Source: Natronococcus occultus SP4
GTDB taxonomy: Archaea; Halobacteriota; Halobacteria; Halobacteriales; Natrialbaceae
DNA length: 64,000 nucleotides
Direction: 5' to 3'
NCBI RefSeq assembly: GCF_000328685.1
Contig: NC_019974.1
Location: 1,975,001-2,039,000, forward strand
A program made the position numbers and the translations under genes. The notes below the pieces were generated by a model. The model had not been told where the DNA came from. It was given only the letters and a program-made list of their open reading frames with translations, and did no database searches. Positions 25,400 to 32,778 of this stretch are shown piece after piece. The first letter of the stretch is position 1. Each line of letters starts with the position of its first letter.

Positions 25400-26002
25400 C
25401 TACTCGAAGCGCGCCTCGAGCAGCCGTTCCACGTACTTCGCGAGGACGTCGACCTCGAGGTGGACCGGATCCCCGGGTTCTTTCTCCGAGAGGGTCGTCA
25501 GTTCGTAGGTCGTCGGGATGATCGCGACTGTCACCCGGCCGTCGGCCGTCAACTCGGCGACGGTGAGGCTGATCCCGTCGAGCGTGATCGACCCCTTCTC
25601 GACGACGTAGCGCTCGTACCCTGCCGGCAGCTCGAACTCGAAGTACCAATCCTCATCGACGGCTTCGACGTCCCGAACCGTCGCCACCGCGTCGACGTGG
25701 CCCTGGACGACGTGACCGTCGAAGCGACCGTCCGCGGGCATCGCCCGCTCGACGTTGACCGCGTCACCCTCCTCGAGACCCCCCAGATACGTTCGCTCGA
25801 CGGTCTCGGTCGCGAGGAAGACCTCGAACCACTCCCCGTTCTCGAACCGCTCGACCGTGAGACAGACCCCGCTGACGCTGATGCTCTGGCCGTGCTCGAG
25901 TCCGATCGCGACCTCGTCGGCGCCGATTCGGAGCCGGAGCCCGTCCTCGGTCCGGGTCCGGGAGACGATCGTTCCGGTCTCCTCGACGATTCCCGTGAAC
26001 AT
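25400..26002 (-). CDS. ribE: Riboflavin synthase (bacterial type, alpha chain)
   Basis: The protein has 200 residues from ATG 26002 (MFTGIVEETG). It converts two 6,7-dimethyl-8-ribityllumazine molecules to riboflavin. Two tandem lumazine-binding barrels are visible: one with SVSGVCLTV, the other with GHVVQGHVD and SITLDGISLTV. The length is normal for the bacterial-type trimeric enzyme, rather than the archaeal pentameric RibC. Haloarchaea are known to use this bacterial type. The frame is open further upstream but only MFTGIVEE matches the family start. No other rib genes are adjacent. Confidence 0.96.
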   Translation of the reverse strand: MFTGIVEETGTIVSRTRTEDGLRLRIGADEVAIGLEHGQSISVSGVCLTVERFENGEWFEVFLATETVERTYLGGLEEGDAVNVERAMPADGRFDGHVVQGHVDAVATVRDVEAVDEDWYFEFELPAGYERYVVEKGSITLDGISLTVAELTADGRVTVAIIPTTYELTTLSEKEPGDPVHLEVDVLAKYVERLLEARFE

Positions 26003-26115
26003 ATCCGAACGTCCGAGCCGACGGATAAAACCGCTCCGGATCGCGGATGCGTCTCGAATCCGTGACGGCACGGCAGCCGCCGCGTTTTTGAGGGGCCCCT
26101 TCGTAGGCGACCTCC

Positions 26116-26968: not shown

Positions 26969-28009
26969 CTAGTCCGCGACGGCCGCTTCCGGATCGAGCG
27001 ATCGCGGGATCGATCCCAGGCGGTCGACGTCGTCGCCGACCGCAACCAGCTCCGTCAGTCGGATCCGTCCGTCTGCGAGATCGACGCCGACGTCGAGTCT
27101 GGCGACCGCGTCCGACTCGACCGTCGCCGAGCCGTGGCGCGGACGTTCGACGGGTTCGAGACCGACGCCCGCGACGCGGGTGTGGATCCCGTCCTCGAAT
27201 CCGAACGCACGCACTTCCGCCTCGAGATCGGCCTCGACGGCAGTAACCGACTGTGCGTCGGCCGTCAGCATCGCCGCGGCCGAACGGAACGAGCGGGTGA
27301 TACCGACGTGGGCGCGGCGTTCGCTCCCGCCCTCGCCGTCCCGAACGAAGGTCCGAGCGAGGACGCCGTGGTAGCCCGACGGCTCCCGTGGCGCGGCCTC
27401 GAGGACGACCGGCTCGCCCGGACGGACGGGGCCGTCGCCGGGGGTCGAGACCGTCGTGTTGCCGTCGGGGAACCCGCCCGCGGCGACGATCGCCTCGTCG
27501 ATCGCGATCCGGAGTCGCTCGGCGGTCAGGGCCTCGTCCTCGAGGCCGAGTCGGCCGTCGACGACCTCGGCGGTCGCGAGCGCGGCGGCCCCCCGCCGGA
27601 GTCCGGCGCCCGCAGCCGCCTGTGCGTCCTCGATCCGCGCGCGCTCGGCGTCCGTCTTCGTCGCTCTCCCGCGGGCGACGACGTCGGTCGAGGAAAGCGA
27701 GAACCCGGCGTCCTCGAGGTAGAGCGCGGCGTCGTGGGGGATGCGAGCCGGCGTCAGCACTGTCCCCGAGAGCCCGTCGGTGGCGAGGACGTCGGCCAGC
27801 TCGCTGGCAGGAGCCGCGCCGGGGTCGGTCGCCGAGCGGACCCGCCACTCGCGGCCGTCGAAGGCGACGGCGTGACGGCCGTCGTCGAGTTCCGGCCGAC
27901 AGTACCGCAGCGTCGGCTGGCGGGCCGAACCGACGGCGACGAACGCGGTCGCGTCCTCGCGTGCGAGGACGTCGGCGATGGCGGGCTCGAGGGGCGAGTC
28001 GCCGGTCAC
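26969..28009 (-). CDS. M24-fold (creatinase/aminopeptidase P-like) protein lacking metal ligands
   Basis: The protein has 346 residues with an N-terminal domain (1-115) and a pita-bread domain (about 120-330), as in Xaa-Pro peptidases. Aligning the family blocks by eye, the five metal ligands (Asp, Asp, His, Glu, Glu) appear replaced. VVLEAAP has Glu204 for the first Asp, and SGYHGVLARTF has Val216 for the second. AGVGLEPVE has Ala280 for the His, RLDVGVD has Asp306 for the first Glu, and IRLTE has Thr319 for the second. It is therefore probably a non-catalytic family member. Its ATG overlaps the UvrD-like helicase stop by 4 nt, so the two are translationally coupled. A binding or scaffold role is possible. 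Confidence 0.8.
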   Translation of the reverse strand: MTGDSPLEPAIADVLAREDATAFVAVGSARQPTLRYCRPELDDGRHAVAFDGREWRVRSATDPGAAPASELADVLATDGLSGTVLTPARIPHDAALYLEDAGFSLSSTDVVARGRATKTDAERARIEDAQAAAGAGLRRGAAALATAEVVDGRLGLEDEALTAERLRIAIDEAIVAAGGFPDGNTTVSTPGDGPVRPGEPVVLEAAPREPSGYHGVLARTFVRDGEGGSERRAHVGITRSFRSAAAMLTADAQSVTAVEADLEAEVRAFGFEDGIHTRVAGVGLEPVERPRHGSATVESDAVARLDVGVDLADGRIRLTELVAVGDDVDRLGSIPRSLDPEAAVAD

Positions 28010-29871
28010 GGCGCTTCGGCTTCGAGCTCGTCGGGGTCGTCGACGGGCGCCTGGGCCTGCTCGAGCAGCTCCTCGAGGGACATCTCGGTCAGCTGATTGG
28101 TGAGCAGGACGTCGATCGGCAGCGTCGGGGCACCGTCGACGAGGTTCTCGAGGATGTACAGTCGCTCGCGGGCCCGGGACATCCCGACGTAGAAGACCCG
28201 GCGTTCGTTGTCGGTCAGCACGGGAACCGGCGAGGTCGTCTTGGTGAACTCCTCGCAGCCGGGGACGTCGGTCGGGTCGTCGACGGTCGCGACCATCTGC
28301 TCGACGACCTTCTCAGTGAGGTCGGTACCGATGAAGACGTGGTCGGCCTCGCGCCCCTTCGCGGAGTGGATGGTGCCGACGCGGACCCGGTCGGTGTCCA
28401 TCCCCTGGTACTCGCCGATGTTGAAGTACGAGCGGATGCTCTTTTTCTGGAAGTTCGTCACCTTCCGGACCATATCACCCGCGGAGGCAGGACCGGGCAT
28501 GAACGGCGCGTGGTCCTCGATGACCGCGGCGGGAACCGCAAGCTCCTCGAGGTCCTCGACGCCCGCCTCCTCCTGGCGCTCGTCGATCTCGTCGAAGAGG
28601 TCGTCGCGGTCGTTCGTGCCGAACGCAGACTCCTGGAGCATATCGGCGAGCCGGCGGGCCTGGAGCCCGGTGACGTCCTCGCCGTCGTCGATCGCCTCGA
28701 CGGCCCGGACGTACTGGGTGAGCCGATCGGTCCACATCCGCTGGTCGGTCAGCGACCGGAACGGCACCCCCTCGGTGATGAACTCGTCGATGAACTGGAA
28801 CATCTGGTACCGGGCACGGAACAACAGCATGATCGTCCCGTCGCCCTCGACGAGAGTGCGCCGGACCATCCGGACGACGTCGAGCATCGAGGCGTTCGCG
28901 CGGGCCTCGACCGAACCGCCCTCCTTGCGGGGTTTGAGGTCCTTATCCTGGCGCGTCTCGATGTGGCGGATCTCCTGGTTGACGGCGTTGAGGACGTTCG
29001 AGGGGAGCCGGTAGGAGTTCGGCAGGATGACGTCCTCGTCGACTTCCTCCTCGAGCAGCAAAGCAGGATCGGCGCCCTGCCAGGAGTAGACGACCTGGTC
29101 GTCGTCGCCGGCGATCAGCACCTGGTCCATGTGGGGTTTCCACTCGTCGTAGACGTCGTACTGCAGCGTGGTGATGTCCTGAAACTCGTCGATCACCAGG
29201 TAGTCGACGTCCGGTAGCAGCGAGCGCTGCTTGACGCGCTCGAGCATGTCGGCGAAGCCGATCTTTCCCTGCTCGCCCTTGTAGCTGCGCCAGGCGCGGA
29301 TCGCCTCGGGGACGTCGATCCGGTCGTCGTCGGAGGGCCAGGTTGGCGTGTACTTGTTGCCCTCCTGGGCGCGGTCGTCGATCTCAGGGGGGAGGCGAAC
29401 CTCCTCGTCGTCCCACTGGAAGGGGACGTCGTACCAGTCAGAAACCTCGCGGCTGGTCCGCTGGAGCCACTGGCTGGTGGCGATGACCTTGTTCCCGATC
29501 GTCGTCGATCGGGCGGTTCGACGGCCCGCACCCGAGTACTCGTCCTCGTACTCGATACCGTACTCGTCACAGAACTCCTCCTTGTCGGACTCGCCGATGA
29601 CGTCGCTTCGAGAGAGGTCCAGTAGCTCATAGGCCTTCGCGTGCATCGTACAGACGTTACCCTGCAGCGCGCGCGGGCTCTCCCCGAGCCGCTCGGCCAG
29701 TCGCTCCCGAACCTCCTGTGCGGCCGCTCGCGTGTACGAAACGACGAGAATGTCCCGGAACGTCACCCCATCCTGCTCGAGGATCTCTTCGACGTGATCG
29801 AGCAGTGCGGTCGTCTTCCCGCTCCCCGGTCCACCGAACAACCGGGTGACCTTCGTCTCCGTAGTAGCCAT
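28006..29871 (-). CDS. UvrD/Rep-family ATP-dependent DNA helicase
   Basis: This 621-residue superfamily 1 helicase has Walker A GGPGSGKTT (13-21) and motif Ia VVSYTRAAAQEVRERL. The motif II is VIDEFQD, followed by motif III GDDDQVVYSWQGADP. Motif V is VGTIHSAKGREADHVFIG and motif VI is RRVFYVGMSRARERLYI. It is somewhat shorter than bacterial UvrD (about 720) through reduced 1B/2B domains. The expected role is 3'-5' DNA unwinding in repair or replication restart. It heads a coupled pair with the M24-fold gene. A TATA-like ACTTATGGG about 27 nt before the ATG fits leaderless transcription. Confidence 0.95.
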   Translation of the reverse strand: MATTETKVTRLFGGPGSGKTTALLDHVEEILEQDGVTFRDILVVSYTRAAAQEVRERLAERLGESPRALQGNVCTMHAKAYELLDLSRSDVIGESDKEEFCDEYGIEYEDEYSGAGRRTARSTTIGNKVIATSQWLQRTSREVSDWYDVPFQWDDEEVRLPPEIDDRAQEGNKYTPTWPSDDDRIDVPEAIRAWRSYKGEQGKIGFADMLERVKQRSLLPDVDYLVIDEFQDITTLQYDVYDEWKPHMDQVLIAGDDDQVVYSWQGADPALLLEEEVDEDVILPNSYRLPSNVLNAVNQEIRHIETRQDKDLKPRKEGGSVEARANASMLDVVRMVRRTLVEGDGTIMLLFRARYQMFQFIDEFITEGVPFRSLTDQRMWTDRLTQYVRAVEAIDDGEDVTGLQARRLADMLQESAFGTNDRDDLFDEIDERQEEAGVEDLEELAVPAAVIEDHAPFMPGPASAGDMVRKVTNFQKKSIRSYFNIGEYQGMDTDRVRVGTIHSAKGREADHVFIGTDLTEKVVEQMVATVDDPTDVPGCEEFTKTTSPVPVLTDNERRVFYVGMSRARERLYILENLVDGAPTLPIDVLLTNQLTEMSLEELLEQAQAPVDDPDELEAEAP

Positions 29872-29960: not shown

Positions 29961-30146
29961 CTACCGGGCCGGCGTCCACCCGCAGACGGTACAGGAGCTG
30001 GCCCCCTCCTCGTGGAGGCCGCCGCAGTCGGGACACTGCTTTTTGTTATACTCCTGCTCCCACCCCACTCGCTCTACCGTGTGACCGCGGTCCGTAAGGA
30101 ATTCATCGAAGACATCGTCACCGGCATCATTGGGTGAGGTTGCCAT
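29961..30146 (-). CDS. HVO_0416-family zinc finger protein
   Basis: The protein has 61 residues from ATG 30146. The zinc ribbon is CPDCG (Cys38, Cys41) and CTVCG (Cys52, Cys55), preceded by VFDEFLTDRGHTVERVGWE. This matches the short haloarchaeal zinc-finger family named after Haloferax HVO_0416. An upstream in-frame ATG at 30182 would add 12 non-conserved residues. Small CxxC/CxxC proteins of haloarchaea are thought to mediate protein or nucleic-acid contacts. It lies 89 bp upstream of the helicase on the same strand. Confidence 0.88.
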   Translation of the reverse strand: MATSPNDAGDDVFDEFLTDRGHTVERVGWEQEYNKKQCPDCGGLHEEGASSCTVCGWTPAR

Positions 30147-31103: not shown

Positions 31104-32525
31104 TCAGTCGACGCGGTCCCACGCGAGCCCGTACTCCTCGGCGACGTCCTCGGCGATCGACTCGAACCGGTCGAACGCCATCGCCGGCGGGTGGGGGTGG
31201 CGGGCGTCGATCTCGTCGGGCAGGTCGTCGTGGTACCGGACCTGGGTCTCGACGTCGTAGGGGAACTCGTCCTCGTCGACACCGACGAACCCGTGCTCGT
31301 CGCGAGCGCGCGAGAGGACTCGCTTCCACTCCCCGATTGAGGCCAGCCCCGCCGACTCCATCCCGTGGGAGAACAGCGTCGAGCGGATCTCGTCGTAGGG
31401 GTCGCTGCGCTCGAGGTAGTCCTCGAGGTGTGCGACGTCCGAGCGGGTGTTGAAGGCGGTCCAGTAGGGGACCGACCCCGTCCGCAGCGTCCACCAGGGC
31501 TCGACCAGCGCGAACGACTGGACGAGCAGCCGCTCGACGGAACGGTCGCGGGCGGCGTAGCGATCCCGGTAGCGGTCGGCGACGAACGGGCTCAGCTCCC
31601 GCGGGTCGTCGAACGCGAGCCGCCGGAGTTCGTAGTCGCGTTCGTCAGCGGCGCGCTCGAGGTCCTCGCGTAAGGCCGGGTCGAACCCCCACTCAGCCTC
31701 CGGTGCCCGTCGATCGGGTTCGGGAACGTCCCACTCGCGTCGGTCCGTGCCCTGCAGGCGAAGGAACTCGGCGACCGTCTCGCTGCCCTCGTAGTACTCC
31801 TCGGGCGCCAGTCCGCCACAACCACCCAGCTGGAAGGTGTGGCGGTCGCCGACGTCTACCACCGGCCAGTCGTACTCACACTCCAGCGAGATGATCGTGC
31901 CGCCGGGCTCGAGGACGGTGTCGAGAAACTCCTCGTAGGCCTCGCCGAGCCGACGGGACTTGACCCGGAAGTACGCTAGCTTCCGGACCATCAGCCGGTC
32001 CTGGTTCGGGTCGTGCATCTGGGCCAGCGAGACGTCGGGGTTGTTCTCGAGGAAGTCGGGGGCGTGCTCGGCGCCCCACGCGACGTCCTCGCGGATCTCG
32101 TCAGCGCCCATCGACCGTCGGATCGGCAGGAGGAACGTCTGGGGGAGAAACGGCACTCCCAGCAGGGCCGCGAGATGTACCGCCGCGCCGTTGCTCGAGC
32201 CGACGATTACCGCGGGGTACCCCCGTTCGGGGTACTGATCGACGACCCACTCCCGGAAGCGCTCGACGTCGATCTCGCCGAGGTCGTCGGGGTCGATCCC
32301 CTCGTTGGCTCCGCCCGTCGTGTAGATCTTGGCGCGGGTCTCCCTGGAGAGACCGTTGACCCGCTTTGCGAGCGGCGCCAGTTTGGGGTGGATCATCCCC
32401 AGCCGCGGGAACTGCTCGCCCCGCAGGTAGCTGGCGGCCGCCCGGACGAAGGCGGTCGTCGAGTCGAAGTTCGGCAGCCCGTAGGGAGTCGACTCCTCGT
32501 CGGCGAACAGCCGTGAGAGTCTCAT
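31104..32525 (-). CDS. Uncharacterised 473-residue protein with a GxSxG-like motif
   Basis: The start is ATG 32525 (MRLSRLFADEESTPYG); the frame remains open upstream to 32747, but that part is Arg-rich and non-coding in look. Around residue 115 is YPAVIVGSSNGAAVHLAALLG, which has the GxSxG nucleophile-elbow shape of alpha/beta hydrolases, including the preceding hydrophobic strand. Later blocks include GGTIISLECEYDWPVV, FQLGGCGGLAPEEYYEG and RTGSVPYWTAFNTRSDVAHLEDYL. There is no signal peptide or membrane segment. I do not recognise the family as a whole. A hydrolase is only one option. Confidence 0.75.
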   Translation of the reverse strand: MRLSRLFADEESTPYGLPNFDSTTAFVRAAASYLRGEQFPRLGMIHPKLAPLAKRVNGLSRETRAKIYTTGGANEGIDPDDLGEIDVERFREWVVDQYPERGYPAVIVGSSNGAAVHLAALLGVPFLPQTFLLPIRRSMGADEIREDVAWGAEHAPDFLENNPDVSLAQMHDPNQDRLMVRKLAYFRVKSRRLGEAYEEFLDTVLEPGGTIISLECEYDWPVVDVGDRHTFQLGGCGGLAPEEYYEGSETVAEFLRLQGTDRREWDVPEPDRRAPEAEWGFDPALREDLERAADERDYELRRLAFDDPRELSPFVADRYRDRYAARDRSVERLLVQSFALVEPWWTLRTGSVPYWTAFNTRSDVAHLEDYLERSDPYDEIRSTLFSHGMESAGLASIGEWKRVLSRARDEHGFVGVDEDEFPYDVETQVRYHDDLPDEIDARHPHPPAMAFDRFESIAEDVAEEYGLAWDRVD

Positions 32526-32778
32526 CGATCGCCCACCTCGACCCGTCGCACCAGTCCCGGCGTCCGTAGCGGGATCAATCGTCGGCCATCGTGGATCATC
32601 AGTTAGTCGGGATACGACGGAGCGGTGGATAGTACTGTGGCCGGCAGGATCGACCGCCGCGGGCCGGGGCGCTCCGAGCGAGAGACGCCGACCCTCGAGC
32701 GGGTAGTGATACCGGCCCCCAACCGGGCTACGTTTCCGCCAACTCAACCCTTAATCGGCGACCGGGAGAACGTCGACC

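Follow-up and report, generated by a model that had tools for sequence, protein, structure and literature searches.

The 64,000-nucleotide stretch of Natronococcus occultus SP4 analysed here (NC_019974.1, positions 1,975,001 to 2,039,000, referred to as the window) carries on its reverse strand a gene for a UvrD-type superfamily 1 (SF1) helicase, followed directly by a gene for a protein with the M24 peptidase fold. Both reading frames are complete and they overlap by four bases (coordinates are those of the window; loci are numbered L, genomes G, genera g and families f).

28006 to 29871, minus strand: UvrD-type SF1 helicase, 621 amino acids, ATG start, with GGPGSGKT, VIDEFQD, GDDDQVVYSWQGA, TIHSAKG and VGMSRARERL present
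26969 to 28009, minus strand: M24-fold (prolidase-like) protein with a lost metal site, 346 amino acids, GTG start
28006 to 28009, minus strand: four-base GTGA overlap, GTG being the M24 start and TGA the helicase stop

An earlier note, made from the sequence alone, had placed both frames correctly and had called the first a complete UvrD-like SF1 helicase, in agreement with the matches to both UvrD domains, N-terminal (UvrD, PF00580, 9e-30) and C-terminal (UvrD_C, PF13361, 1e-13); the roles of the five motifs listed above are those that we presume for helicases of this kind. The ATGA coupling it described was in error and is rejected here, as the window sequence gives GTGA, with GTG as the M24 start codon.

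The M24 protein matches Peptidase_M24 (PF00557) over residues 173-324, at 25.1 bits against a cut-off of 23 (E 1.8e-5), and among eight orthologues scanned with the same family one (L057) was below the cut-off, at 16.1 bits. With the M24 protein of N. jeotgali it shares 82% identity. A structural model built from 24 sequences, with a mean predicted local distance difference test score (pLDDT) of 93.6, displays a complete prolidase fold made of a pita-bread domain and a creatinase-type N-terminal domain. The best VIA-align match is the Pyrococcus horikoshii prolidase 1wy2 (Z 31.5, root-mean-square deviation 2.7, 312 aligned, residues 5-339), and the 50 entries listed, mostly of prolidase or aminopeptidase P types, have Z values of 27.7-31.5 and aligned ranges reaching residues 1-346. 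The Foldseek list is headed by the prolidases 1pv9 and 1wy2, with creatinase 1kp0 also among the matches and chickpea Spt16 (5ce6) at rank 44; a search by sequence against solved structures returned nothing useful for the M24 protein, with one match at E 1.

Positions corresponding to the metal ligands were assigned by aligning the protein with its M24 paralogues in the window genome, which has ten M24 matches, window protein included.

27398 to 27400, minus strand: E204, ligand position 1 (canonical D)
27362 to 27364, minus strand: V216, ligand position 2 (canonical bridging D)
27170 to 27172, minus strand: A280, ligand position 3 (canonical H)
27092 to 27094, minus strand: D306, ligand position 4 (canonical E)
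27053 to 27055, minus strand: T319, ligand position 5 (canonical bridging E)
27149 to 27151, minus strand: V287, second-shell His of the HExP motif (canonical H)

The alignment recovers all five substitutions that had been proposed: D, D, H, E, E have become E, V, A, D, T, and the second-shell histidine is also gone. Two of the changes replace one acid by another, at 204 (D to E) and at 306 (E to D); the bridging carboxylates at 216 and 319 and the histidine at 280 are truly lost. Among degenerate orthologues, E is retained at position 306 in 27 of 71 rows (alignment without L083, L091 and L012-L014). Judging from known M24 chemistry, the window protein should be unable to build a normal two-metal centre, and it is almost certainly a pseudo-peptidase, predicted to be inactive. 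Four of the paralogues (L004, L006, L008 and L009) have non-standard residues at the ligand positions (EPYIS, TEHES, DCHEE and SSGNE, respectively), the alignment there being less certain.

Conservation of the pair, which had been listed as a check, is borne out. Pooled by genome, the loci represent 196 halobacterial genomes. The helicase is followed by a readable M24 gene in 152, by a frameshifted copy in two, by a copy cut by a contig end in two and by no M24 gene in 39, and one genome has no clear helicase; the count of 152 leaves out the frameshifted and contig-end copies. Both frameshifted copies (L257 in G033 and L237 in G160) lie behind an intact helicase frame and represent either assembly error or real decay. 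An M24-based first search of named genomes had found the helicase upstream on the same strand at 24 of 24 loci, although the contig of L055 holds the helicase end only and the helicase of L063 is split over two frames. The distribution by family, in which degenerate means that not all five ligands are kept, consists of counts and not of frequencies, since 30 genomes of the window's family (f1) were top matches to the M24 protein itself, G078 and G353 were added for their M24 matches, and the searches that followed targeted f5, f7, f12, f14 and one large genus.

f1 (the window's family): 40/40 degenerate, all with a readable frame
f7: 9/9 degenerate
f14: 8/8 intact
f5: 37 intact, 39 degenerate, 1 frameshifted
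f12: 2 intact, 17 degenerate, 5 without M24, 1 frameshifted, 1 partial
f16: one partial copy
f2, f3, f4, f6, f8, f10, f13, f15 and f17: 34 genomes read, none with M24 behind the helicase

For the 30 of 40 f1 genomes that were found via the M24 protein, the data inform on ligand state and not on gene presence; the nine f1 genomes found by helicase search all carry the M24 gene (9/9). In 80 of the 152 genomes the M24 start lies at -4 relative to the helicase stop, the overlap being GTGA in 79 and ATGA in one, and in 149 genomes that cover five families and both ligand states the spacing falls between -4 and +12; since the first start codon met from -10 onwards was used, short spacings are favoured.

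All five ligands are kept in 47 of the 152 genomes and not in the other 105, the number retained being 0 in 39, 1 in 45, 2 in 18, 3 in one, 4 in two and 5 in 47. Loss of the metal site extends throughout f1 (40/40) and is not general. Intact orthologues were named in the earlier note as evidence that would refute its proposal, and in one sense they exist. The 47 of them, in the same place and behind the same helicase, refute the idea of an anciently fixed dead module, which we reject, and leave that of a binding module untouched; what persists of the helicase-linked module first suggested is the linkage and the loss of the metal site throughout f1, but not an ancient inactivation. Forms with three or four ligands are rare (3/152), and therefore the metal site, once failing, seems to go quickly. 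At residue 287, histidine is present in 47 of 47 intact orthologues and kept in nine of the 105 degenerate ones, 74 of which have arginine; this replacement in several lineages may reflect repeated selection or else the easiest base change in GC-rich genomes.

The intact state is taken as ancestral because prolidases unlinked to the helicase keep every ligand and because those placed in the M24 tree, seven unpaired proteins, fall outside the paired family. The unlinked set consists of the 30 best matches of an intact member, one per genome (40 searched), all with the full set of ligands; 27 of these genomes have the helicase with no M24 gene behind it, two have no helicase match and G016 also has a partial paired copy. 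Genome G031 holds two further intact prolidases away from the helicase (L286 and L287, 43% and 53% identical to the paired L061), neither with the GGxxRR motif described below; the gene at L287 (U_L149 in the M24 tree) groups with a prolidase of the window genome's contig C3, outside the paired family.

Ligand loss has very probably happened independently more than once. On a helicase tree built from 61 rows, of which 20 are intact (L083, with a truncated M24, and L091, at a contig end, were omitted), ligand state changes nine times, a number found in 938 of 1000 bootstraps, with eight changes in 52 and ten in 10. The figure of nine depends on the helicase tree. The clearest evidence of repeated loss comes from genus g29, with 21 intact, 10 degenerate and one frameshifted copy, where single-ligand losses (DDHEG, DDHGE) stand beside fully intact relatives. 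In a 42-row set around this genus, from which the frameshifted L257 was omitted, the helicase tree requires seven changes (5-7 over bootstraps) and the M24 tree, with ligand columns removed, requires five (4-6).

Loss of the ligands has not released the gene from constraint. Ratios of nonsynonymous to synonymous substitution rates (dN/dS, by NG86 throughout) are 0.20-0.43 in degenerate and 0.08-0.43 in intact pairs of a first set, which excludes two pairs with L043. In and around g29, seven degenerate pairs have a median of 0.40 (0.34-0.53, with shared members) and ten intact ones a median of 0.29 (0.23-0.38), the helicase median being 0.09. The M24 gene thus remains under purifying selection after ligand loss. 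Two motifs outside the metal site are conserved in the paired family, in both ligand states.

27314 to 27331, minus strand: GGxxRR motif (G227 G228 R231 R232) at a helix start, kept in 152/152 readable paired orthologues
27725 to 27739, minus strand: PHDAA motif (residues 91-95) in the N-terminal domain, PHD 91-93 exact in 133/152

The GGxxRR motif is present in 105 of 105 degenerate copies, including five truncated forms of 210-224 amino acids, and was seen neither in the 30 unlinked prolidases nor in eight M24 paralogues of the window genome. Polar residues that are kept comprise H92, D93, Y213, R219, T220, R231, R232, E265 and E288. In genus g79 of family f5, the proteins at L083, L198, L199, L201 and L211 lack both the N-terminal domain and the metal site and have retained GGxxRR. 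A search for GGWERRA as a DNA pattern matched 13 of 101 genomes and was uninformative, the tryptophan not being kept in most of f1.

Evolutionary distances provide a further, weak tie between the two proteins, beyond what the distances of riboflavin synthase account for. The analysis started from 62 loci (without L064, L083, L091 and L148) and used the 39 that have the gene for riboflavin synthase, a downstream neighbour, in the stretch covered. For the 26 degenerate loci, M24 distances track those of the helicase with a partial correlation r of 0.58, against -0.02 for riboflavin synthase; the two values become 0.53 and 0.11 after length matching, and 0.46 and 0.17 after matching of variable columns.

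The interpretation that we favour, with a probability of about 0.5, is that the product of the second gene is a pseudo-peptidase whose ancestor was an active M24 enzyme of the prolidase type, that its gene is coupled to the helicase gene, and that its selected role is non-catalytic binding, most likely with the helicase. Since pseudo-peptidase status and repeated independent loss are both well supported, non-catalytic binding would be the likeliest reason for the retention of the M24 protein; indeed, loss of catalysis in several lineages with retention of the gene fits a dispensable activity on a useful protein. The helicase as the partner is a guess based on the coupling of the genes and the weak coevolution, and we regard it as a candidate with close to an even chance of being right. 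According to this scenario, an active prolidase-type M24 gene would have become coupled to the gene of a haloarchaeal UvrD-type helicase, and the four-base coupling would deliver the M24 protein beside newly made helicase. The protein would then most likely dock on the helicase, or on its target, via the GGxxRR surface and the N-terminal domain, and may act there as an accessory adaptor or regulator. Its original peptidase activity would have been dispensable and may have been dropped where other prolidases suffice. A bolder version, which we put forward tentatively and consider somewhat doubtful, makes the M24 protein a true accessory subunit of the helicase, with binding conserved even in the species that still cut peptides; the active site, by then a relic, would have been shed about nine times according to the helicase tree and once more, recently, inside one genus, leaving in a single operon a graded series that runs from enzyme to pseudoenzyme.

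Several observations weigh against the favoured reading. The helicase has no M24 gene behind it in 39 of the 196 genomes, across many families, and M24 presence changes six times on a helicase tree with a poorly resolved backbone (L146 left out), so that the M24 protein can be at most accessory. Its gene is frameshifted in two of the 196 genomes, and it evolves much faster than the helicase, the median ratio of dN being about 7 in both ligand states. The distance signal is weak at the 13 intact loci (0.50 for the helicase versus 0.34 for riboflavin synthase after length matching, 0.45 versus 0.37 after column matching), and linkage may yield part of the correlation because the M24 gene is closer to the helicase gene than that of riboflavin synthase is. 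In the M24 trees, repeated loss is less evident: with the ligand columns removed, 40 of 41 degenerate rows of the deep tree form one clade (98/99 support), for which reason only two changes are needed, and the 42-row tree around g29 has long-branch warnings, many weak forks and an outgroup that is not one clade. Finally, deletion of HVO_0415 in Haloferax volcanii gave no UV or mitomycin phenotype (PMC7776575). This gene is probably the orthologue of the window helicase, as gene order and numbering suggest; we equate the two because a two-CxxC zinc-finger gene adjoins both.

Among the other explanations, the one that survives best, although we hold it to be unlikely, is that the M24 protein is a non-catalytic binder with no relation to the helicase, such as a peptide-binding sensor or chaperone that uses the old pocket, with the operon as a convenient expression unit. 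A helicase that manages without M24 in 39 of 196 genomes would suit this explanation, as would a neighbourhood that also contains unrelated genes such as that of riboflavin synthase, and M24 pseudoenzymes are described as binding very different partners (Ebp1, PMC11266112; Spt16, PMC4741192). On the other hand, close spacing persists in 149 of 152 genomes, over five families and in both ligand states, and where the ligands used to be the degenerate forms have no residue pattern in common.

It is improbable, and more so, that one old pseudo-M24 form existed beside the active form and spread into the locus by recombination, as opposed to repeated loss in place. The single clade of the deep M24 tree, with its two changes, is what such a spread would leave, but we read this clustering mainly as long-branch attraction: the degenerate branches are long, and two helicase-like groupings survive approximately unbiased (AU) tests, with p 0.21 and 0.22 (two of five groupings with a result). 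The ten degenerate M24 proteins of f5 and f12 were also compared row by row, and as a pool, with the intact M24 proteins of their helicase relatives (17 intact rows, L060-L062 omitted). The tie is positive in 10 of 10 rows and significant at p<0.05 in just three, which leaves some room for recombination. Pooled and centred, however, the ten rows jointly resemble the intact M24 proteins of their helicase relatives beyond chance (r 0.37, p 0.003; N-terminal domain p 0.003, C-terminal domain p 0.03), also without L104 (p 0.007; C-terminal domain p 0.10). The seven f5 rows alone are weak over the whole length (r 0.18, p 0.08), with p 0.01 in the N-terminal domain and no tie in the C-terminal domain (p 0.66). 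The five changes needed by the M24 tree around g29 and the occurrence of single-ligand losses also speak for loss in place.

A decaying gene, redundant with the other M24 peptidases of the genome and retained solely through its operon position, is a poorer explanation again. The somewhat higher dN/dS after loss (median 0.40 versus 0.29), the two frameshifted copies, the absence from some lineages and the ten M24 matches in the genome are all compatible with decay, whereas dN/dS of 0.20-0.53 in all degenerate pairs measured, GGxxRR in every readable degenerate copy and a readable frame in 40 of 40 f1 genomes (30 of them found via the M24 protein itself) are not what decay predicts. Last, creatinase has the M24 fold without metal, and the whole fold and some polar residues are kept here, but a metal-free, creatinase-like enzyme is very improbable, as the old ligand positions vary widely between degenerate lineages with no residue pattern in common, unlike a conserved new catalytic centre, and the motifs that persist occur also in forms with all metal ligands.

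The helicase of the favoured pairing is a widespread halobacterial protein. A search of 80 chosen halobacterial genomes detected it in 78, as 77 clear orthologues of 57-91% identity (up to 96% in named loci) and one remote match of 27% in G011. A phylum sample of 294 genomes gave 54 matches at 1e-30; one was weak and outside the order, and that of G011, inside the order, was also weak. No orthology with a named bacterial helicase was obtained by NCBIfam cut-off, the best model being pcrA with 109 bits against a cut-off of 911. The predicted helicase structure was poor (mean pLDDT 58) and was left unused. Among PADLOC models, those of GajB match the helicase (best 7.8e-30), as does a DRT-associated helicase model (4.9e-30), 52 families matching altogether; the M24 protein has zero PADLOC matches. 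A Pfam scan that covered the pair and seven proteins nearby showed no GajA (OLD nuclease), and a Gabija-like defence system was rejected on this account.

Two further genes of the neighbourhood recur in other genomes.

29961 to 30146, minus strand: two-CxxC zinc-finger micro-protein, 61 amino acids (CPDCG ... CTVCG), 5' of the helicase on the same strand
25400 to 26071, minus strand: riboflavin synthase, conserved downstream neighbour on the same strand, directly 3' of the helicase in several M24-less genomes

A similar two-CxxC reading frame lies at most 700 bases upstream of the helicase in 62 of 104 loci scanned, some genomes being counted twice. In a set of 80 loci, a same-strand riboflavin synthase gene lies downstream in 23 of 43 M24-bearing loci, at least 1110 bases from the helicase, and in 23 of 37 M24-less loci, where the nearest is 8 bases from the helicase and ten are within 110 bases; in the remaining loci it is not in the stretch covered, and in two of the 37 M24-less ones it is located elsewhere. 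A 547-amino-acid reading frame at 31104-32747 (minus strand) matches no Pfam family at E up to 1, and an Rfam scan of the window gave nothing at gathering thresholds.

The locus offers a change from enzyme to pseudoenzyme that can be traced in several lineages while the gene context stays constant, with living species that keep five, four, three, two, one or no ligands. Such a graded series in a constant context makes it testable whether a non-catalytic function predates the loss of catalysis. The M24 protein would also be a candidate partner for a helicase present in nearly every halobacterial genome sampled and, if HVO_0415 is the same gene, for a helicase whose deletion has no UV or mitomycin phenotype (PMC7776575).

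Among openly licensed PubMed Central papers, we found nothing relevant on a link between M24 proteins and the helicase, and none on HVO_0414 or HVO_0413; the words archaea and helicase are both absent from the searched text of a 2024 review of inactive metallopeptidases. In H. volcanii, HVO_0415 is annotated as 'repair helicase UvrD' and, similarly to the window helicase, is a UvrD-type gene numbered next to a two-CxxC gene, HVO_0416, which encodes a zinc-finger micro-protein (PMC6490895) whose likely counterpart in the window is the 61-amino-acid frame. Deletion of HVO_0416 leads to a gain in biofilm (PMC6562870). HVO_0415 itself co-purified with Cas1, and the authors of that work ask for reverse pull-downs (PMC9051519).

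The eukaryotic factors Spt16 and Ebp1, to which the earlier note compared the window protein, resemble it as a likeness only, the nearest solved folds being prolidases. Spt16 carries further domains behind its M24-like domain, whereas the M24 protein is a stand-alone, prolidase-like protein of 346 amino acids with M24 fold matches spanning it. What the two appear to share is a complete fold of aminopeptidase type without the activity: the N-terminal domain of Spt16, part of the chromatin factor FACT, resembles an inactive aminopeptidase and binds histones (PMC4741192). Ebp1 (PA2G4) is likewise an M24 pseudoenzyme with lost ligands, which keeps two of five and works by binding, in its case to ribosomes (PMC11266112). 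It belongs, however, to the methionine-aminopeptidase branch and binds human ribosomes, with no recurring inactivation described in the parts of that paper drawn on. Both published pseudo-M24 proteins thus act by binding (PMC11266112, PMC4741192). The closest relatives are found in the prolidase / Xaa-Pro aminopeptidase subfamily of M24 (Pyrococcus furiosus 1pv9, P. horikoshii 1wy2), with which the window protein shares the whole two-domain fold, as predicted, and of which 47 of its 152 orthologues still have all the ligands. It departs from this subfamily in having neither the ligands nor the second-shell histidine, in its own PHDAA and GGxxRR motifs, and in the helicase gene to which it is coupled.

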